64,000 nt of DNA. Source: Flavobacteriales bacterium. GTDB taxonomy: Bacteria; Bacteroidota; Bacteroidia; Flavobacteriales_F; PHOS-HE28. Below are positions 24,874-41,993 of this stretch, piece after piece. Position numbers and translations under genes: made by a program. The stretch is from assembly GCA_016788295.1 (NCBI GenBank), contig JAEUSY010000004.1, forward strand, positions 124,001-188,000, read 5' to 3'. Under the pieces are notes generated by a model, which was not told where the DNA came from, did not search any database, and was given only the letters and a program-made list of their open reading frames with translations. Within the stretch, counting starts at the first letter, position 1. The number at the start of each line of letters is the position of its first letter.

Positions 24874-25103
24874 GGGGTTCCGGTGAAAGAGCAAAGGGAA
24901 CAACCCTGATCGGAATATGTTCCGGCAGGCTCGGTAGCGCCTGCATAAACACCTGAATGTCTGTCGATTGACAAAATTCAATGCGTTCTCGGAGAGAGGT
25001 CGATCGTCACGAAAAATCATTTTGTTCAACTTTTTCTTGGAAACATCAGACAACTTAGTTCACCTTTGTTCAGTCTTTCGTCCATAACATTAAACATTGC
25101 GTC
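24874..25103. promoter_or_regulatory. AT-rich divergent promoter region between TonB receptor and ECF sigma gene
   Basis: The 230-base gap contains a clear local drop in GC over 24950-25100, unlike the surrounding DNA. A small hairpin (GCAGGC at 24925-24930 with GCCTGC at 24939-24944) lies in the receptor leader. On the plus strand, TTTG near 25066 followed about 22 bases later by TTAAACATTG resembles a -33/-7 pair for the sigma gene. No operator can be named. Confidence 0.4.
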
Positions 25104-25613
25104 ATGTCCACACTCGAGTTCCAACAGCAACTGGTCGGACTGCGACAGCAGTTGTACTACTTCGCCCTCAGCCTGACCAAAGACCGCGACAACGCCCTGG
25201 ACCTTCTTCAGGAAAGCCTGATGCGTGCGTTGACCTACCGCGACAAGTTCCAGGACAATACCAACTTCAAGGCTTGGCTCTACACCATCATGAAGAACAC
25301 CTTCATCAATGACCACCGCCGCGCCAAGCGGACGAAGGCCCTGATGGACACCGTGGACCGCGAGCGCGATCAGGTGCGCAGGGTGCAAACTCCGGCCAGT
25401 GCTGAAGCCTCTGTGAAAATGAGCGAGATCAGCCGTAGCTTGGAGCGGTTGGACCCAGCGTTCCGAACGCCATTCACCATGCACCATGAAGGCTACAAAT
25501 ACCACGAGATCGCCGATCACATGGGCATCCCCATCGGCACGGTGAAAAGCAGGATCTTTCAGGCACGCCAGCGCTTGATGGAGATGCTCAGCGACAAACA
25601 CATCAACAACTAA
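25104..25613 (+). CDS. ECF-type RNA polymerase sigma factor
   Basis: A 169-residue extracytoplasmic-function sigma factor made only of regions sigma-2 and sigma-4. Region 2 shows LYYFALSLTKDRDNALDLLQ and FKAWLYTIMKNTFINDHRR. Region 4 shows a helix-turn-helix in HEGYKYHEIADHMGIPIGTV followed by KSRIFQARQRL. No anti-sigma gene lies next to it. Its TAA overlaps the crtI ATG, so it heads the carotenoid/photorepair operon and probably regulates it (inference). The signal (light, singlet oxygen or other) cannot be read here. Confidence 0.9.
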   Translation: MSTLEFQQQLVGLRQQLYYFALSLTKDRDNALDLLQESLMRALTYRDKFQDNTNFKAWLYTIMKNTFINDHRRAKRTKALMDTVDRERDQVRRVQTPASAEASVKMSEISRSLERLDPAFRTPFTMHHEGYKYHEIADHMGIPIGTVKSRIFQARQRLMEMLSDKHINN

Positions 25614-27100
25614 TGCCGCACGCGATCGTCATCGGCTCGGGCTTCGCAGGCCTTACCGCCGCCGCTTCACTGGCGCGGAAGGGCTACAAAGTGACCGTGC
25701 TAGAGAAGAACACCGAGCCCGGCGGTCGTGCGCGCACGTGGAGCGAGCAAGGCTTCACCTTCGACATGGGTCCCAGCTTCTACTGGATGCCCGAGGTCTT
25801 CGTGCGCTTCTTCAACGCCATGGGCGAGCGCGTGCAGGACCACTACAAGCTTGAGCGTCTGGACCCCTCCTATAGCGTGGTCTTCGGTCCCGGTGAGAAA
25901 TGGGCCATCCCAGCCGACCCCATTGCCCTGCGCGCCTTCTTCGACAGCAAAGAGAAAGGTGCCGGCGCGCAGTTGGACCGCTTCCTGGCCGAAGCCAAAC
26001 TGAAATACGACCTTGGCATGGGCGAGCTCGTCTACCGCCCATCCTTGAGCTGGGGTGAGTACATGCACCCGGGCCTGATCGGCGGCCTGCTGAAGACCAA
26101 AGTGTTCCGCAGCCTCCGCAAACATGTGCAAGCGCACTTCAACGACGCGAAGCTGCGCCTGCTGATGGAGTTCCCGGTGCTCTTCCTGGGTGCAGCGCCG
26201 CAGAACACGCCCGCGCTGTACAGCCTGATGAACTACGCCGACATGGAACTGGGCACCTGGTACCCCATGGGCGGCATGGGTAAGGTGGTGGATGCCTTCG
26301 TGCGTGTGGCCGAGAAGCAGGGTGCGACCATCCGCTGTGGCTTGCCCGTTAAGCGGATCGTGGTCGAGAATGGAAAGGCCGTGGGCGTGGAAACGAGCGA
26401 AGGCGTGCTGAAGGCCGACATCGTGGTGGCCGGCGCCGACTACCACCACGTGGACCAGGAGCTGATGCCCGAGGAGGCACGCGGCTACAACAAGGACTAC
26501 TGGAGCAAGCGCACCATGGCACCCAGCGGCCTCCTGTTCTACCTGGGCTTCGATCGCCGCCTGCCCGACCTGGAGCACCACACCCTTTTCTTCGACGAAT
26601 CGCTGGACGCCCACAGCGCCGAGATCTACGACAACCCGGCGTGGCCCAGCAAACCGCTCTTCTACACCAGCTGCGCCAGCAAGACAGACCCCAGCGTGGC
26701 GCCCGAGGGCAAGGAGAACATGGTGATCCTCATCCCCATCGCCCCCGGCCTGGACGACCGCGACGAAACGCGCGAACGCTACTACAACGTGGTGATGGAG
26801 CGCTTGGGCAAGCACCTCGGCTTCGACCCGCGCCCGCATGTGGTGGTGAAGCGCAGCTACAGCATCAACGACCTGAAGCAGGACTACAACGCCTTCCGCG
26901 GAAACGCCTACGGCATGGCCAATACCATCATGCAAACAGGTCCACTGCGGCCCAGCATGAAGAGCCGCAAGGTGAAAGGCCTCTATTACACAGGCCAGCT
27001 CACTGTGCCCGGTCCCGGCGTGCCGCCGGCGATCATCAGTGGCGAAGTGGTGGCCGATCTGATCGAAAAGGAATACGCGCCCAAACCCATCAAGGCATGA
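25613..27100 (+). CDS. crtI: Phytoene desaturase (CrtI type)
   Basis: A 495-residue FAD-dependent desaturase that converts phytoene to lycopene or a related polyene. The N-terminal dinucleotide fold is IVIGSGFAGLTAAASLARKG with LEKNTEPGGRART. The C-terminal bacterial phytoene-desaturase signature is visible in GLYYTGQLTVPGPGVPPAII followed by SGEVVADLI. Its start overlaps the sigma stop (TAATG) and its stop overlaps the crtB start (ATGA), so all three are translationally coupled. Confidence 0.94.
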   Translation: MPHAIVIGSGFAGLTAAASLARKGYKVTVLEKNTEPGGRARTWSEQGFTFDMGPSFYWMPEVFVRFFNAMGERVQDHYKLERLDPSYSVVFGPGEKWAIPADPIALRAFFDSKEKGAGAQLDRFLAEAKLKYDLGMGELVYRPSLSWGEYMHPGLIGGLLKTKVFRSLRKHVQAHFNDAKLRLLMEFPVLFLGAAPQNTPALYSLMNYADMELGTWYPMGGMGKVVDAFVRVAEKQGATIRCGLPVKRIVVENGKAVGVETSEGVLKADIVVAGADYHHVDQELMPEEARGYNKDYWSKRTMAPSGLLFYLGFDRRLPDLEHHTLFFDESLDAHSAEIYDNPAWPSKPLFYTSCASKTDPSVAPEGKENMVILIPIAPGLDDRDETRERYYNVVMERLGKHLGFDPRPHVVVKRSYSINDLKQDYNAFRGNAYGMANTIMQTGPLRPSMKSRKVKGLYYTGQLTVPGPGVPPAIISGEVVADLIEKEYAPKPIKA

Positions 27101-27939
27101 ACACCATCGGACTTTACGATAAGGTCTGCCTGAAGGCCAGCAGGCACACCACCTACAGTTACAGCACCTCGTTCTCCTTGGGCATCCGCTCGCTGGACAA
27201 GCGTTTCCATTCGCCGATCCACGCCATCTACGGCTTCGTGCGCTTCGCCGACGAGATCGTGGACACCTTCCACGGCTTCGATAAGAATGATCTGCTGAAG
27301 CGCTTCCGGGAGGACACCTATCGCGCCATCAACGAGGGAATCAGCCTCAACCCCATCCTGCACAGCTTCCAGCGCGTGGTGAACGAGTACCGCATCGAGC
27401 GCGAACTCTACGACACTTTCCTGGACAGCATGGCGATGGACCTGACGGACACCGCCCACGACCAGCGCAGCTACGAGACGTACATCCTGGGCAGCGCCGA
27501 GGTAGTGGGTCTCATGTGCCTGCGCGTGTTCTGCGAGGGCGACGATGCGATGTACCAGGAGCTCAAGCCCGCAGCCATGAAGCTGGGCGCGGCCTTCCAG
27601 AAGGTGAACTTCCTCCGCGACCTGAAGGACGACCACCAGAATCTGGGCCGCACCTACTTCCCCGGCATCGACCTGAGCCAGTGGGGCGAAGAGACCAAGC
27701 GCGCCATCGAGGCCGACATCCAGGCCGACTTCGATGCGGCGTTGATCGGTATCCGCGAACTGCCGAAAGGCGCGCGCTTCGGGGTGTACATGGCGTACAT
27801 CTACTACGTGAACCTCTTCCGCAAGATCAAGGCGCTGCCCGCGAGCCGCATCATGCAGGAGCGTGTGCGGGTCCGCAACCGGCGCAAGATCGCGCTGCTC
27901 ACCACCAGCTACCTGCGGCACAGCTTCGGCATGCTCTAA
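27097..27939 (+). CDS. crtB: Phytoene synthase
   Basis: A 280-residue squalene/phytoene synthase family enzyme that joins two geranylgeranyl diphosphates. The first Asp-rich motif is FADEIVDTF and the second is LRDLKDDHQNLGRTYFP. YSTSFSLGIRSLDKRFHSPI is the usual N-terminal block. It begins with an ATGA overlap with crtI and ends six bases before idi. Squalene synthase is a formal alternative, but the operon argues for phytoene. Confidence 0.94.
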   Translation: MNTIGLYDKVCLKASRHTTYSYSTSFSLGIRSLDKRFHSPIHAIYGFVRFADEIVDTFHGFDKNDLLKRFREDTYRAINEGISLNPILHSFQRVVNEYRIERELYDTFLDSMAMDLTDTAHDQRSYETYILGSAEVVGLMCLRVFCEGDDAMYQELKPAAMKLGAAFQKVNFLRDLKDDHQNLGRTYFPGIDLSQWGEETKRAIEADIQADFDAALIGIRELPKGARFGVYMAYIYYVNLFRKIKALPASRIMQERVRVRNRRKIALLTTSYLRHSFGML

Positions 27940-27945
27940 TTGGCC

Positions 27946-28488
27946 ATGCAAGACCACGCATTGAACGAGGAACAGGTGGTGTTGGTGAACGAGCACGACG
28001 AGGCCATCGGCACCATGGGCAAACTGCGCGCGCACCAGGAATGCGCGCTGCACCGGGCGTTCAGCGTGTTCCTCTTCGATGATCAAGGGCGCCTGTTGCT
28101 GCAACGGCGCGCTGCGGGCAAGTACCACAGCGCAGGTCTTTGGACCAACACCTGCTGTAGCCATCCACGTCCCGGCGAGCACCTGGTGGATGCTGCGCGC
28201 CGTCGGCTGATGGAGGAGATGGGCATCGACGCCGAGGTGGAGCACCGCTTCAGCTTCCTCTACAAAGCTGGCTTCGACAATGGCCTGTACGAGCACGAAC
28301 TGGACCACGTCTTTTTCGGCGACTACTACGGCACGCCACAACCTGCGCCCGACGAAGTGGACGACTGGAAATACCTGCACCCCGATGCGCTGGAGGCCGA
28401 CATGGCCGCGCATCCTGAGCAATACACCGTGTGGTTGCGTGAATGCTGGCAACGCGTGCGCGCCGAACTGGCCTTGAAGGCCGCTTGA
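27946..28488 (+). CDS. idi: Isopentenyl-diphosphate delta-isomerase (type 1)
   Basis: A 180-residue Nudix-fold enzyme that interconverts IPP and DMAPP, balancing precursors for geranylgeranyl diphosphate. The active-site Cys motif TNTCCSHPRPGE, the Nudix-like AARRRLMEEMGI and the catalytic Glu region YEHELDHVFFG are present. The ATG at 27946 was preferred over a TTG at 27940. It lies six bases after crtB. Its presence fits with MEP-pathway supply (ispF at 5.2 kb). Confidence 0.95.
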   Translation: MQDHALNEEQVVLVNEHDEAIGTMGKLRAHQECALHRAFSVFLFDDQGRLLLQRRAAGKYHSAGLWTNTCCSHPRPGEHLVDAARRRLMEEMGIDAEVEHRFSFLYKAGFDNGLYEHELDHVFFGDYYGTPQPAPDEVDDWKYLHPDALEADMAAHPEQYTVWLRECWQRVRAELALKAA

Positions 28489-28510: not shown

Positions 28511-29194
28511 ATGTTGATGAAGAAGAATGGCGCGGTGATCCCGTTCGCCCTGCCCATCGAAGATCTTGAGCCCGAACAACACGCGGCATCCATCGATACA
28601 CCAATGCGCGCTGATGCGTTCGCACTGGCACCCGATGAGAAGATCGCTCGTATCGAGAAGCACTTCCGTGGCATCATGGAAACACTGGGCCTCGACCTTA
28701 CGGACGACAGTCTGCAGGGCACACCCAAGCGCGTGGCCAAGATGTTCGTGAACGAAGTGTTCAGCGGACTGGATCCCGAGACTCGCCCCGAGCCCACGCT
28801 CTTTGCCAACAAATTCGGCTACAAGGGCATGCTGGTGGAGCGCGACATCACCGTACACAGCTTCTGCGAACACCACTTCGTGCCCATCATCGGAAAAGCA
28901 ACCGTGGCCTACTTCAGCAGCGGGCAGGTCATCGGCCTGAGCAAGCTGGACCGCATCGTGAAACACTTCGCCGCACGGCCCCAAGTGCAGGAGCGCCTCA
29001 CCGAGCAGATCGCAGCCGAGCTGAAGCGCGTGCTGCGCACCGACGACGTGGCCGTGCTGGTCGATGCCGAGCATATGTGTGTGAAACTGCGCGGCGTGAA
29101 GGACGAATGCAGCAGTACTGTTACCACGCACTTCAGCGGTCGATTCGAGGATGCCGAGGTGCGGAATGAATTCCTGATCTACCACAAACGCTGA
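28511..29194 (+). CDS. folE: GTP cyclohydrolase I (FolE type)
   Basis: A 227-residue enzyme that makes 7,8-dihydroneopterin triphosphate from GTP, the entry to folate and other pterins. The zinc/active-site motif HSFCEHHFVPIIGKATVAYF, the VIGLSKLDRIVKHFA-RPQVQERLT block and the C-terminal VDAEHMCVKLRGVKD are complete. It has a ~40-residue variable N-terminal extension. It sits inside the carotenoid operon and is followed one base later by the photolyase. A pterin supply for the photolyase antenna or for photoprotection is a reasonable inference. Confidence 0.95.
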   Translation: MLMKKNGAVIPFALPIEDLEPEQHAASIDTPMRADAFALAPDEKIARIEKHFRGIMETLGLDLTDDSLQGTPKRVAKMFVNEVFSGLDPETRPEPTLFANKFGYKGMLVERDITVHSFCEHHFVPIIGKATVAYFSSGQVIGLSKLDRIVKHFAARPQVQERLTEQIAAELKRVLRTDDVAVLVDAEHMCVKLRGVKDECSSTVTTHFSGRFEDAEVRNEFLIYHKR

Positions 29195-29195
29195 A

Positions 29196-30542
29196 GTGGA
29201 GGTGAAGCCCCGCATCAGCATACACTGGTTCCGGCGTGACCTGCGGCTGGAGGATAACCATGGTTTCTTCCGTGCCCTGAGCGAGCATGGCGATGTGCTG
29301 CCGTTATTCATCTTCGATTCGGACATCCTCAGCAAGCTGGAGGACAAGCACGACCGCCGCGTGGACTTCATCCACCGCGCATTGCAGGGCATGCAGGCCA
29401 GGCTGGTGAAGCATGGCAGCAGCCTGCTGGTAGAGCATGGCAAACCCATCGGGGTCTGGAAGCGCCTGCTGGAACGGTTCGAGGTAACGGCCGTGACCAC
29501 CAACCACGACCACGAGCCCTATGCCTTTGCACGTGACAAAGCCATTGGGGAACTGCTTGCAACACGTGGCATCCCCTTACACAGCTTCAAGGACATCAGC
29601 ATCTTCGAACGTGGCGAAGTGGTGAAAGACAACGGCGGACCGTACACCGTGTACACGCCGTACATGAAGAAGTGGCGCGCGCACTTCACGCGTGAAATGG
29701 CGGCACCCTTCCCCAGCGAAGGCCACCTGCACCGCCTGTGGAAAAGCGCTCCCCTGCCGCTACCGAGCCTGGAGGACATCGGCTTCCAATCAACCGACCT
29801 GCAGGCACCGCCCAACACCTTGAGCGAGGAGATCCTGCGGAACTATGCGGAAACGCGTGACATCCCCAGCATCGTTGGCACCAGCCGTATGAGCACCCAC
29901 CTGCGCTTCGGCACGGTGAGCGTGCGCGAGCTGGTGCGTCGCAGCCTGAGGTCGAGCCCGAAATATCTCAACGAGCTCATTTGGCGTGAGTTCTTCATGC
30001 AGATCCTGTGGCACTTCCCCCACCCCGAGAAGTCCTTCAAGCCCAACTACGACAACATTGAATGGCGGCATGACGAGGCTGCGTTCAAGGCCTGGTGCAG
30101 CGGACGCACGGGTTACCCCTTGGTGGATGCCGGCATGCGCGAACTGGCCGCAACGGGCCTGATGCACAATCGGGTGCGCATGGTGGTTGCCAGTTTCCTC
30201 ACCAAGCACCTGCTGCTGGATTGGCGGTTGGGAGAGGCCTGGTTCGCTGCCAAACTGCTGGACTTCGAGCTGAGCAGCAACAATGGCGGGTGGCAGTGGG
30301 CCTCTGGCTCGGGCTGTGATGCGGCCCCGTATTTCCGGGTATTCAACCCCCGCCTCCAACTGGAAAAATTCGATCCTCAGTTAAGATATGTGAAGAAGTG
30401 GGTGCCGGAATACGGTTCGGCAAACTATGTGCAGCCCATGGTCGTTCATGAAATGGCACGCCAACGAGCCCTCGACACCTACAAGAAAGGTCTGGAGGGC
30501 GGGCTGGCCAAGGATCAACGACAAACCAAACTCTTCACATAG
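29196..30542 (+). CDS. Deoxyribodipyrimidine photolyase / cryptochrome family protein
   Basis: A 448-residue flavoprotein. The N-terminal antenna-binding domain begins ISIHWFRRDLRLEDNHGF. The C-terminal FAD domain has TRMSTHLRFG-like SRMSTHLRFGTVSVRELVRR, WREFFMQILWHFP, GYPLVDAGMRELAATGLMHN and the SSNNGGWQWASGSG stretch followed by YFRVFNP. This fits class I CPD photolyases, which repair UV-induced pyrimidine dimers using light. A cryptochrome-like signalling role is possible but less likely. Translation starts at GTG 29196, one base after the folE stop; no ATG fits better. Confidence 0.92.
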   Translation: MEVKPRISIHWFRRDLRLEDNHGFFRALSEHGDVLPLFIFDSDILSKLEDKHDRRVDFIHRALQGMQARLVKHGSSLLVEHGKPIGVWKRLLERFEVTAVTTNHDHEPYAFARDKAIGELLATRGIPLHSFKDISIFERGEVVKDNGGPYTVYTPYMKKWRAHFTREMAAPFPSEGHLHRLWKSAPLPLPSLEDIGFQSTDLQAPPNTLSEEILRNYAETRDIPSIVGTSRMSTHLRFGTVSVRELVRRSLRSSPKYLNELIWREFFMQILWHFPHPEKSFKPNYDNIEWRHDEAAFKAWCSGRTGYPLVDAGMRELAATGLMHNRVRMVVASFLTKHLLLDWRLGEAWFAAKLLDFELSSNNGGWQWASGSGCDAAPYFRVFNPRLQLEKFDPQLRYVKKWVPEYGSANYVQPMVVHEMARQRALDTYKKGLEGGLAKDQRQTKLFT

Positions 30543-30544
30543 CC

Positions 30545-30706
30545 ATGCCACGCAAAAAGAAAGTCCTCGTCCTCAGCCAACCCGTCAAGGAAGGTATCAA
30601 GGCCATCAAGGTCCGGTTGGATGCACGCACCATCATCACTGTAGCCAGCCAAAAGGCCTTGGAATTCTGGCGCCAGCGCTATCCCAAGCTGGAGGTCATC
30701 GGATAA
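30545..30706 (+). CDS. Small basic protein of unknown function (53 residues)
   Basis: A frame from ATG 30545 to TAA 30706, two bases after the photolyase stop and six bases before the SRPBCC gene. The protein starts MPRKKKVLVLSQPVKEG and ends WRQRYPKLEVIG. It is basic, has no membrane segment, no Cys and no metal motif; the middle (IKVRLDARTIITVASQKALE) could form strand-helix. The tight packing in a co-directional operon and normal codon use support a real gene. I do not recognise the family. Confidence 0.65.
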   Translation: MPRKKKVLVLSQPVKEGIKAIKVRLDARTIITVASQKALEFWRQRYPKLEVIG

Positions 30707-30712
30707 CCACAC

Positions 30713-31189
30713 ATGTCACAACACGTCCTCGAACGCAGCCAGCTACTGCCCATCTCTCTTGATGAAGCCTGGGCTTTCTTCAGCAGCCCACGCAACTTGG
30801 CCAAGATCACACCGCCCGATATGGGCTTTGTGATCCGCGAGCCGTTCGATGACAATCCCACCTATGCCGGGCAGCGGATCACGTACACGGTGAGCCCGTT
30901 GCTCGGCATTCCGCTTAAATGGGTCACGCTCATCGCCGAGGCCGAAGGACCATATCGCTTCGTGGACACCCAGGTGGAGGGCCCTTACAAGCGCTGGTGG
31001 CATGTACACACGTTCGAGGCCGTAGAGGGCGGAGTGCTCATGAAGGACCGGGTGGAATATGAACTACCCCTTGGGCCCTTGGGCGAACTGGCACACACTA
31101 TTTTTGTAAGGCAGCGCTTGAAGGCCATCTTCGATTTCCGCTTCGCGACCCTTGAACGGTACTTCAAGGAAAACAAGCGAACCAAGTAG
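30713..31189 (+). CDS. SRPBCC (START-like) ligand-binding family protein
   Basis: A 158-residue single-domain protein with the Bet v1/START-like fold expected from ISLDEAWAFFSSPRNLAKITPPDMGF at the N-terminus and a long C-terminal helix (RQRLKAIFDFRFATLERYF). Such proteins, often named cell-division-inhibitor-like, recur near photolyase genes. The fold binds hydrophobic ligands, but no ligand or catalytic residue can be assigned. It lies between the 53-residue unknown and crtZ in the operon. Confidence 0.8.
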   Translation: MSQHVLERSQLLPISLDEAWAFFSSPRNLAKITPPDMGFVIREPFDDNPTYAGQRITYTVSPLLGIPLKWVTLIAEAEGPYRFVDTQVEGPYKRWWHVHTFEAVEGGVLMKDRVEYELPLGPLGELAHTIFVRQRLKAIFDFRFATLERYFKENKRTK

Positions 31190-31211: not shown

Positions 31212-31694
31212 ATGAGCATTTGGGCGATCATCGGCATCGTGCTGGGCACTGCCATCGTGATGGAATTCGTGGCTTGGGCCACACACAAGTATGTGATGCA
31301 CGGTTTCCTCTGGAACCTGCACGCCGACCATCATAAGAAGGACCACTATGGCTTCCTTGAACGCAACGATGCCTTCTTCCTGATCTTCGCCATTCCTTCC
31401 ATGATCCTGTTCATCGTGGGGAGCTTGAAAGGTCTTCACACGCCCTACCTCTGGATCGGCCTGGGTATTCTCATCTATGGCCTGTTGTACTTCTTCGTAC
31501 ACGAGGTGTTCATCCATCAACGCATCAAATGGTTGCGGCGCACCAACAACCCCTATTTCCTCGCGATCCGCAAAGCGCACAAGGTGCACCACAAACACCT
31601 CGGTAAAGAGGACGGCGAATGCTTCGGCATGTTGGTGGTCCCCTTCAAGTATTATCGGGAGGCGCGCAAGGCCCTCGCGCAGCAGCGCTCCTGA
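31212..31694 (+). CDS. crtZ: Beta-carotene 3-hydroxylase (CrtZ-like)
   Basis: A 160-residue di-iron membrane hydroxylase of the fatty-acid hydroxylase superfamily that adds 3-hydroxyl groups to beta-ionone rings, giving zeaxanthin-type xanthophylls. The His clusters are HKYVMH, HADHH, HEVFIHQ and HKVHHKH, with membrane helices between. The ATG at 31212 starts a hydrophobic helix directly. It is the last gene of the operon. No lycopene cyclase gene lies in the window, so the cyclase must be elsewhere. Its TGA abuts the stop of the convergent SafE-like gene. Confidence 0.92.
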   Translation: MSIWAIIGIVLGTAIVMEFVAWATHKYVMHGFLWNLHADHHKKDHYGFLERNDAFFLIFAIPSMILFIVGSLKGLHTPYLWIGLGILIYGLLYFFVHEVFIHQRIKWLRRTNNPYFLAIRKAHKVHHKHLGKEDGECFGMLVVPFKYYREARKALAQQRS

Positions 31695-40602: not shown

Positions 40603-41391
40603 ATGAGCGATCAGATCAGACAACTGGGCAGTTACCTGGGCCACTTGGTTAAGGCACGCACGCGGCACGGTGTGCACAGCCCGTTCGTTTACGACCTCAT
40701 TTCGCAAGTGCTCCGCCCCAGCAACGAGCTGCCGGAGTTCGCGCCCATGGAGAAGCTGCGCGAAGACCTGCTGCACAGCGAGCAGACCATCCGAGTGAAC
40801 GACCTCGGCGCCGGTTCGCGCGTATTCGACCTGCCGGTACGTCGTGTTGCGGACATCGCCCGTTCGGCCATGAAACCGCCACGGCAGGCTCAGCTGCTGT
40901 TCCGCCTGGCCCGCTACTTCCGAACGGAGCATGTGCTTGAGCTTGGCACCTCCTTCGGCATCAGCACGCTTTACCTGGCCAAAGGCGCGGAAGAAGGACA
41001 GGTGACCACCATTGAAGGCTGCCCACAGACCTGCCGCATCGCGCAGCACCACTTCGAGCAACTGAAACAGCGGAACATCCTGCCGGTGTTGGGCAGTTTC
41101 CGAACACGCCTGCCCGAAGTGCTGGGCCGCATGGAACGGATCGACCTGGCCTTTATTGATGGCCACCACGCCAAGGAACCCACCCTGGAGTATTTCGAGC
41201 AATGCCTCGCCAAGGCCCACAACGATACGGTGTTCGTGTTCGACGACATCCATTGGAGCCGTGGCATGGAAGAGGCCTGGGAGGCGATCAAGGCGCATGA
41301 GCGCGTCACCGTCACCATCGACCTCTACAACATGGGGCTGGTGTTCCTCCGTCGCGAACAAGTGCCCCAGCACTTCGTTCTGCGCTACTGA
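40603..41391 (+). CDS. Class I SAM-dependent methyltransferase (O-methyltransferase-like)
   Basis: A 262-residue protein. Residues ~20-80 hold a helical region with RTRHGVHSPFVYDLISQVLR, common in Bacteroidota members. The SAM fold follows: VLELGTSFGISTLYLAKGA (motif I), VTTIEG (motif II acidic residue), IDLAFIDGHHAKEPTLEYFE and VFVFDDIHWSRGMEEAWEAI. The DxH pair resembles metal-dependent O-methyltransferases. Substrate unknown. It is divergent from the cco operon and 50 bases upstream of the cobalamin adenosyltransferase. Confidence 0.85.
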   Translation: MSDQIRQLGSYLGHLVKARTRHGVHSPFVYDLISQVLRPSNELPEFAPMEKLREDLLHSEQTIRVNDLGAGSRVFDLPVRRVADIARSAMKPPRQAQLLFRLARYFRTEHVLELGTSFGISTLYLAKGAEEGQVTTIEGCPQTCRIAQHHFEQLKQRNILPVLGSFRTRLPEVLGRMERIDLAFIDGHHAKEPTLEYFEQCLAKAHNDTVFVFDDIHWSRGMEEAWEAIKAHERVTVTIDLYNMGLVFLRREQVPQHFVLRY

Positions 41392-41441
41392 ACGAGGCAC
41401 CGAACGCGGTTCCTTCCTTACTTCGTGGCCCAACCCACACC

Positions 41442-41993
41442 ATGAAGATCTACACGCGCACCGGCGATGGCGGGCAGACCAGCCTGCTGGGCGGCACCCG
41501 GGTACCCAAGGACCACCTGCGCATTGAGGCCTACGGCACCGTTGACGAGCTCAACAGCCACCTCGGCATGCTGCGCGACCTGAGCCGCGTACACCACGGC
41601 GAGCGCATCATGGTCATCCAGCAGACGCTCTTTTCCATCGGATCGCGCCTGGCAGCAGGCTCCGAGGAAGAGGCCGAACGCTTCAAGGTACCGGCGGTGG
41701 GCGAAGAGGACATCGCCCAGCTGGAAAAGGACATGGACGCCATGGACACCGAGTTGGAGCCCATGCGCAACTTCATCCTGCCCGGCGGCCATCCCGCAGT
41801 ATCGCAGGCCCACATCTGCCGCACCGTGTGCCGCAGGGCCGAGCGCCGGGTGGTGCAACTGGCCGCCCATGAGGCCATTCCCGAAACGGTGGTACGCTAC
41901 CTCAACCGGCTCTCGGACCTGCTCTTCGTAATGGCCCGCCACTTGGCCAAGGTGAACGGCGTGGCCGATATCCCTTGGCGGCCAAGGGCTTGA
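41442..41993 (+). CDS. Cob(I)alamin adenosyltransferase, PduO type
   Basis: A 183-residue enzyme that makes adenosylcobalamin from ATP and cob(I)alamin. Motifs: the N-terminal ATP site TRTGDGGQTSLLGGTRVPKD, IEAYGTVDELNSHLGMLRD, and the C-terminal FILPGGHPAVSQAHICRTVC followed by RRAERRVV. No B12-dependent enzyme or other cobalamin gene is nearby. A near-match -7 box (TTACTTCG, 41418-41425) precedes the ATG at short distance. Confidence 0.93.
   Translation: MKIYTRTGDGGQTSLLGGTRVPKDHLRIEAYGTVDELNSHLGMLRDLSRVHHGERIMVIQQTLFSIGSRLAAGSEEEAERFKVPAVGEEDIAQLEKDMDAMDTELEPMRNFILPGGHPAVSQAHICRTVCRRAERRVVQLAAHEAIPETVVRYLNRLSDLLFVMARHLAKVNGVADIPWRPRA

Follow-up and report, generated by a model that had tools for sequence, protein, structure and literature searches.

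A family of small, basic proteins in Bacteroidia with a conserved member in an ECF-sigma/carotenoid operon

The stretch of DNA analysed here (the window, 64,000 nt from a Flavobacteriales bacterium) carries an operon that begins with the gene of an ECF-type sigma factor. Then follow crtI, crtB, idi, folE, phr, a small gene of 53 codons, the gene of an SRPBCC-type protein and a crtZ-like gene, for the last of which neither Pfam nor NCBIfam gives a match (Table 1). The sigma gene directly adjoins crtI, and on its other side lies a divergent 861-codon frame. The initial annotation had drawn attention to the small gene as a tightly spaced member of an operon of light-stress genes, and the Pfam and NCBIfam names of the phr, crtI, idi and folE neighbours bear this out. 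The operon resembles the light-inducible crt operons of non-phototrophic bacteria which are controlled by CarH/LitR or by an ECF sigma factor, as crtI, crtB, a crtZ-like gene, idi, folE and phr are shared and stand behind an ECF sigma gene. A crt operon from another GTDB family (f84, stretch L200) adjoins a divergent MerR and B12-binding regulator, as well as a SOUL gene. Compared with these known systems, the small gene is an additional conserved gene in the operon of the window.

Table 1. Genes of the operon and further features of the window (positions in the window).
Feature	Position	Strand	Basis
ECF-type sigma factor, first gene of the operon	25104..25613	+	NCBIfam search; orthologues in relatives
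crtI, phytoene desaturase	25613..27100	+	NF058655, above cut-off
crtB, phytoene synthase	27100..27939	+	named by eye, from position and similarity to other crt operons
idi, isopentenyl-diphosphate isomerase (IPP isomerase)	27940..28488	+	NCBIfam search
folE, GTP cyclohydrolase I	28511..29194	+	Pfam and NCBIfam searches
phr, photolyase, upstream neighbour of the small gene	29196..30542	+	Pfam DNA_photolyase, FAD_binding_7
Small gene, 53 residues	30545..30706 (stop included)	+	coding constraint, codon usage, homologues
Residues 1-20 of the small protein: basic tail (net charge +5) for which no secondary structure is predicted	30545..30604	+	
Residues 21-52 of the small protein: predicted beta-beta-alpha-beta mini-domain	30605..30700	+	E21-24, E30-33, H36-45, E50-52
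SRPBCC-type protein, downstream neighbour of the small gene	30713..31189	+	Polyketide_cyc2, E 0.0006, below gathering cut-off
crtZ, beta-carotene hydroxylase-like	31212..31694	+	inferred from position and 52-58% identity to the crtZ-like genes of another family
Methyltransferase and cobalamin adenosyltransferase	40630..41978	+	56% and 63% identity to the L129 genes; Pfam names

Upstream of the sigma gene (window 24990-25104) the words TTGTTCA and TAAACA are repeated. They are present in many relatives too but absent from more distant ones. These words could be operators of a CarH/LitR-type regulator. The chromophore of the CarH/LitR light sensors is adenosylcobalamin.

The frame of the small gene comprises 53 codons from the ATG at 30545 to the TAA at 30704-30706. 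The stop codon of phr ends at position 30542 and leaves a gap of 2 nt (CC), and a gap of 6 nt (CCACAC) precedes the start of the SRPBCC gene at 30713. The coordinates thus agree with the complete, closely spaced short frame of the initial annotation. As the window contains 104 ATG open reading frames of 45-65 codons, the length of the frame is by itself no evidence for a gene. By codon-usage log-odds, with eight genes of its own operon as the reference, the small gene ranks second among these 104 frames; the frames ranked first and third presumably encode CcoQ and CcoS. In 153 pairwise comparisons among 18 operon copies, a set that omits the tandem second copies and the copy of 52 codons in L016, the pN/pS ratio in frame is 0.18, a sign of strong purifying selection. 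The other two forward frames give 1.20 and 3.20 and the three reverse frames 1.25, 0.37 and 3.46, the third positions of the 0.37 frame mirroring those of the small gene. At the first, second and third codon positions 29, 14 and 49 columns, each out of 53, are variable. A homologous frame is found in all 45 genomes analysed from the genus. The small gene is a genuine protein-coding gene; the pN/pS ratio, the codon-usage rank and the homologues in the genus rule out a chance open reading frame. The comparison of synonymous and non-synonymous changes, which the initial annotation had proposed as a check, therefore finds the coding constraint present.

From the gaps of 2 and 6 nt we infer that the small gene shares a transcript with phr and the SRPBCC gene and is coupled to both in translation. 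If so, its product would be made while the response to light and photo-oxidative stress is on, such light control being suggested by the gene content of the operon.

An alignment of 79 homologous sequences reaches down to about 29% identity with the window protein. The members are about 50 residues long. All 79 have a pI above 9 (median 10.6), and they carry a mean net charge of +8.1, to which the first 20 residues contribute about half. M1, T29, W42 and P47 are invariant, and D26 and Y46 are conserved in at least 90% of the rows. AlphaFold2 with the 79-row alignment gave a model with a mean pLDDT of 79.3 and a pTM of 0.46. A second model, computed from a 68-row alignment with a distant member first, has the same order of elements (mean pLDDT 76.9, pTM 0.46), its last strand being too short for listing. 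With Foldseek and VIA-align 2 the first model had no significant match in the PDB (best E 1.4, best Z 2.4); nothing was found at E 0.001 for a domain that spans only about 33 residues. Fragments of topoisomerase II/IV, a designed EEHE mini-protein and the C-terminal domain of lambda Ea22 came up as weak fold matches and were set aside. The conserved residues look structural and would fit a hairpin turn (LDxRT), a hydrophobic core (W/Y) and a helix cap (YP). As the family has no conserved His or Cys and a single conserved acid, D26, catalysis appears unlikely judging from the sequence.

The family is unnamed and in none of the searched libraries. Nothing credible was found for it in Pfam and NCBIfam (best E 0.027 and 0.013, respectively), the PDB sequences, PHROGs (30 members of alignment A1; best E 0.028, set aside as chance) and PADLOC (two family members). 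The Pfam, NCBIfam and PHROGs results are in keeping with the earlier statement that the protein has no recognisable motif. The C-terminal DNA-binding domain of MvaT/H-NS (PF22055) is matched by one of the 79 members at E 0.078, which is not significant, the other 78 being without a match at E 0.1. The Venus-flytrap domain of BvgS (PDB 3mpk) aligns over 28 residues at E 0.0038; with a chain of 267 residues against a protein of 53, this is most likely chance. A search of plasmids, phages and viral contigs with the single window protein gave no homologue, nor was there a match that would speak for a defence origin.

Among the papers listed first in literature searches, titles and abstract openings contain no description of such a gene, a scope in which a differently named gene would be missed. 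The nearest published hint comes from Chryseobacterium lacus, one example of a species with a light-inducible crt operon, where crtB and crtZ flank a gene, RS06200, that is induced by light and annotated as a 'hypothetical protein' (PMC7064467). Its position resembles that of the small gene. The authors state that this strain has no genes of the car or lit operon (PMC7064467).

The 45 genomes analysed from the own GTDB family, all of one genus, contain 110 matches, one to five in each. The search of the order returned the same genomes, and all 43 with a completeness of at least 70% matched. In a draw of 395 genomes from the class, 90 have a match at E 0.01, 16 of them from the own genus, and 305 have none; the matches spread over 36 of 196 genera. 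One of the 90 is doubtful (G646, E 0.0089): a later search did not confirm it and it is probably chance. The family is found in a minority of the genera drawn from the class Bacteroidia. When 395 genomes were drawn from the phylum, two matched, the own genome counted, and 393 did not.

A 75%-identical copy stands in a Patescibacteria MAG (L019:4930-5400; also L202:9850-10380), between genes that by eye are mnmA-like and alaS-like. It is followed by a second small frame, similar by eye, and by a terminator-like hairpin. This island has about 50% GC versus 36% in the surrounding stretch. It is possible that the copy was transferred from Bacteroidota. In a draw from the phylum of this MAG two of 286 genomes match, the MAG itself and a doubtful one; the match in G946 (E 9e-4, 24 residues inside a longer frame) is probably chance. 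In one genome of the own genus, a family match with an in-frame TGA (G043:C13:23354-23494, in L168) is probably a decayed copy.

The initial annotation had suggested that the small protein is a partner of the photolyase or of the SRPBCC protein, and had called for conservation next to their genes in relatives. Such conservation exists. In 29 of the 45 genomes a family copy lies on the same strand within 600 bp of phr and/or the SRPBCC gene, in 25 of both. A first scan yielded 24 loci, 17 of which (L001-L017) have phr, SRPBCC or crt genes adjoining. Several operons carry a tandem second copy, e.g. L002, L003 and L006, and most of these second copies group inside the crt part of a weakly resolved tree. 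An obligate partnership is not supported, however, as 10 of the 45 genomes match neither phr (E 1e-30) nor the SRPBCC gene (E 1e-10), yet every one of these 10 contains a family member. In six genomes where phr is matched, no copy lies within 600 bp of it or of the SRPBCC gene, and in G013, G032 and G039 these two genes share a contig without a copy beside them. In G005 and G006 the small gene stands behind crtB, with idi adjoining in G006, and there is no match to the sigma gene, phr or the SRPBCC gene.

The operon copy is linked most strongly to the sigma gene, which has a match (E 1e-35) in 37 of the 45 genomes. In 30 of these the small gene follows on the same strand 137-5,183 nt downstream, at 137-380 nt in seven genomes and within 5.2 kb in 23 more. 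Among the seven sigma matches without a linked copy, five are divergent sigma genes (45-53% identity), and in G001 and G044 the sigma gene is on a different contig from the small gene. For crtB no match (E 1e-20) was found in eight of the 45 genomes. Six of these, 95-100% complete, have this sigma gene, and in all six the small gene lies 137-205 nt behind it, which speaks against a partner of the photolyase or the SRPBCC protein; G019 and G020, also without crtB, have neither this sigma gene nor a crt-linked copy. In the crtB-less loci that were read, the sigma gene and the small gene are followed by a methyltransferase and a cobalamin adenosyltransferase (Pfam names, the L129 pair). Since homologues of this pair lie in the window (Table 1), these loci are probably versions of the window locus that lost the enzyme genes or never gained them. 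As the operon copy stays when phr, the SRPBCC gene or crtB is missing, our comparison shows it to be tied to the ECF-sigma/carotenoid locus and not to the photolyase.

A comparable arrangement occurs in another GTDB family, f84, where 10 of 46 genomes have 11 matches. At seven of these 11 loci, from six genomes of one genus, idi precedes the small gene, crtZ and a lycopene-cyclase-like gene come after it, and crtB is upstream. In L206 and L211 a gene for an SRPBCC protein 46-49% identical to that of the window follows directly, and to this extent the suggested SRPBCC partnership gains from a second family; the other five crt loci have no SRPBCC match beside the small gene. Eight of the 14 genomes of this genus are without a match to the small gene. 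Neither the f84 crt loci that were read nor the L200 stretch of 18 kb matched the phr query. The order small gene, (SRPBCC), crtZ is common to two GTDB families, be it by descent, transfer or separate recruitment.

Within the genus we distinguished 102 copies, 41 in a crt context, seven behind the sigma gene alone and 54 elsewhere. The latter are found in the vicinity of yajQ and an ABC transporter (20), between Sua5-like and GH3 genes (9), at lipoprotein-like (6) and desaturase-like (6) genes and in other surroundings (13). The paralogue in the own genome (L026) lies ahead of a fatty-acid-desaturase-like gene; a CsbD-like label for the small frame in front of this paralogue (L026:1279-1482) was dropped, there being no Pfam match at E 0.01. 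A tree of the copies (53 columns, 101 rows, one copy with unknown bases dropped) requires 17 changes of the context label versus a mean of 55 after shuffling, so that groups retain their own neighbours. As 49 of its 93 inner branches are below 80% support, the tree supports only the clustering of contexts. Outside the genus 40 loci were read. One (L100) is in a crt operon and 39 are elsewhere, a further point against a dedicated partner of photolyase or SRPBCC. Recurring across GTDB families are ClpB (f73, f87, f93), yajQ (f1, f74) and crt genes (f1, f84) as well as a convergent gene that weakly matches ATP10 (f8, f60, f87), all of which we list without claiming enrichment. GAPDH-, EF-P-, SerC- and YaaA-like neighbours were named by eye. 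In f73 and f93 (L091, L095, L099, L083) the small gene follows clpB on the same strand after 31-91 nt, measured to the stop-to-stop frame.

The upstream region of the crt operon with its TTGTTCA and TAAACA words differs from that of the stand-alone copies. In three groups of the latter, selected after the word had been noticed, 26 of 33 copies have GGCA[CT]G at a distance of 30-90 nt before the start, versus three of 33 at -160 to -220. By group, the word is found in 12 of 18 yajQ, eight of nine GH3 and all six lipoprotein-like copies (e.g. L128, L141, L149). It is rare elsewhere, with 2/5 at the desaturase, 2/10 in other surroundings, 3/41 in crt and 1/7 in sigma contexts and 3/48 outside the genus. 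The element TTTGGCACG of the stand-alone copies was considered as a sigma-54 promoter of the -24/-12 type and set aside, as several copies lack one base of the expected spacing and the GH3 group varies in it.

Taken as a whole, the explanation which we tentatively prefer, with rather less than even confidence, is a real gene, a member of the sigma/crt locus, that encodes a small nucleic-acid-binding stress protein. For the mechanism alone, a nucleic-acid-binding stress (photostress) microprotein comes first and is put forward still more tentatively; a regulator linked to the sigma factor comes second and a helper of an enzyme complex third. RMF, SRA and the small nucleoid proteins are small basic stress proteins associated with nucleic acids or the ribosome. 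The protein of the window is like them in size, in charge and in several stress-linked neighbours, but unlike them it has no credible library match and its predicted order of elements is beta-beta-alpha-beta.

We suggest that binding could proceed as follows. The Lys/Arg tail together with the basic hairpin (K22, R24, R28) would contact RNA or DNA, at the ribosome, on mRNA or in the nucleoid. The beta-beta-alpha-beta unit, held by L25, W42, Y46 and P47, may serve as a scaffold or as a dimer surface. Under other conditions, this activity would be provided by the paralogues elsewhere in the genome. Against this, a high pI is common among very small proteins, so the charge is weak evidence for nucleic-acid binding. 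The searched libraries hold no homologue of known function, and the class-wide neighbours are mixed (ClpB and YajQ by Pfam) and indicate no single process. The absence of a significant PDB match for the fold and of the family from most of the genomes drawn, including eight of the 14 in the f84 genus with crt-linked copies, counts against the proposal as well.

Alternatively, the small protein could work with the ECF sigma factor of the operon, as a co-factor or a non-canonical anti-sigma factor, and tune the photostress regulon. The copies retained directly behind the sigma gene in all six crtB-less genomes argue for such a role. No obvious anti-sigma gene adjoins the sigma gene in the window, its neighbours being crtI and the divergent frame, and a single clade of the crt and sigma copies is not rejected (p-AU 0.562, where a value above 0.05 proves no clade). 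However, G005 and G006 keep the small gene with crtB and have no match to this sigma gene, and as far as the loci were read no sigma gene adjoins the yajQ, GH3, lipoprotein-like and desaturase copies or the 40 loci outside the genus. In addition, the window protein contains no Cys or His, by eye has no transmembrane segment, and Pfam gives no anti-sigma family at E 0.1. We regard this role as rather unlikely.

It is also conceivable that the small protein aids the SRPBCC protein or the enzymes of the carotenoid pathway, for instance as a peptide that docks idi, CrtZ or SRPBCC to the membrane or helps them to assemble into a complex. The like position before (SRPBCC-)crtZ in two GTDB families would fit, as would the close SRPBCC spacing in the window and in L206 and L211. 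Yet the small gene is retained without crtB in six genomes, 54 of the 102 copies within the genus and 39 of the 40 loci read beyond it are not at a crt or sigma locus, and most of the f84 crt loci have no SRPBCC match beside it. Such assistance thus seems unlikely to us.

The many contexts, the several matches per genome, the tandem pairs within the crt operon and the Patescibacteria copy in its GC-richer island might suggest a semi-mobile passenger which duplicates into operons and has a role tied to none of them. The GGCA[CT]G word, common to three stand-alone groups that were picked afterwards, could be read in the same way. Set against this are the neighbours that the groups retain in the tree, the plasmids, phages and viral contigs without a copy in the single-protein search, and the strong purifying selection on the operon copy; a mere passenger is quite improbable. 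Most improbable of all is a dedicated photolyase partner, for which the 2 nt gap in the window and the distances of 5-43 nt, match to match, from phr to the nearer copy in relatives would speak, since the family occurs in genomes without phr or SRPBCC matches, is not found near either gene in six genomes with a phr match, and accompanies f84 crt genes in loci without a phr match.

A wider and more speculative proposal is that these basic microproteins of the beta-beta-alpha-beta type, spread over many lineages of Bacteroidia, serve as adaptors of gene expression under stress in general. The copy in the operon would be a dedicated component of an ECF-sigma photostress switch, with the sigma factor, RNA polymerase or the transcripts of the photostress response as its target, and copies elsewhere would act likewise at other stress loci. 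We give this generalisation a low probability.

In summary, our analysis brings to light a conserved protein family of Bacteroidia that had no label. An operon for light protection, otherwise made up of enzymes and a regulator, gains an extra conserved component. It also illustrates that annotation libraries overlook short genes even within a well-known type of operon. Should the small protein prove to act together with RNA or the sigma factor, this would raise the question of how non-phototrophic Bacteroidia tune photo-oxidative stress.
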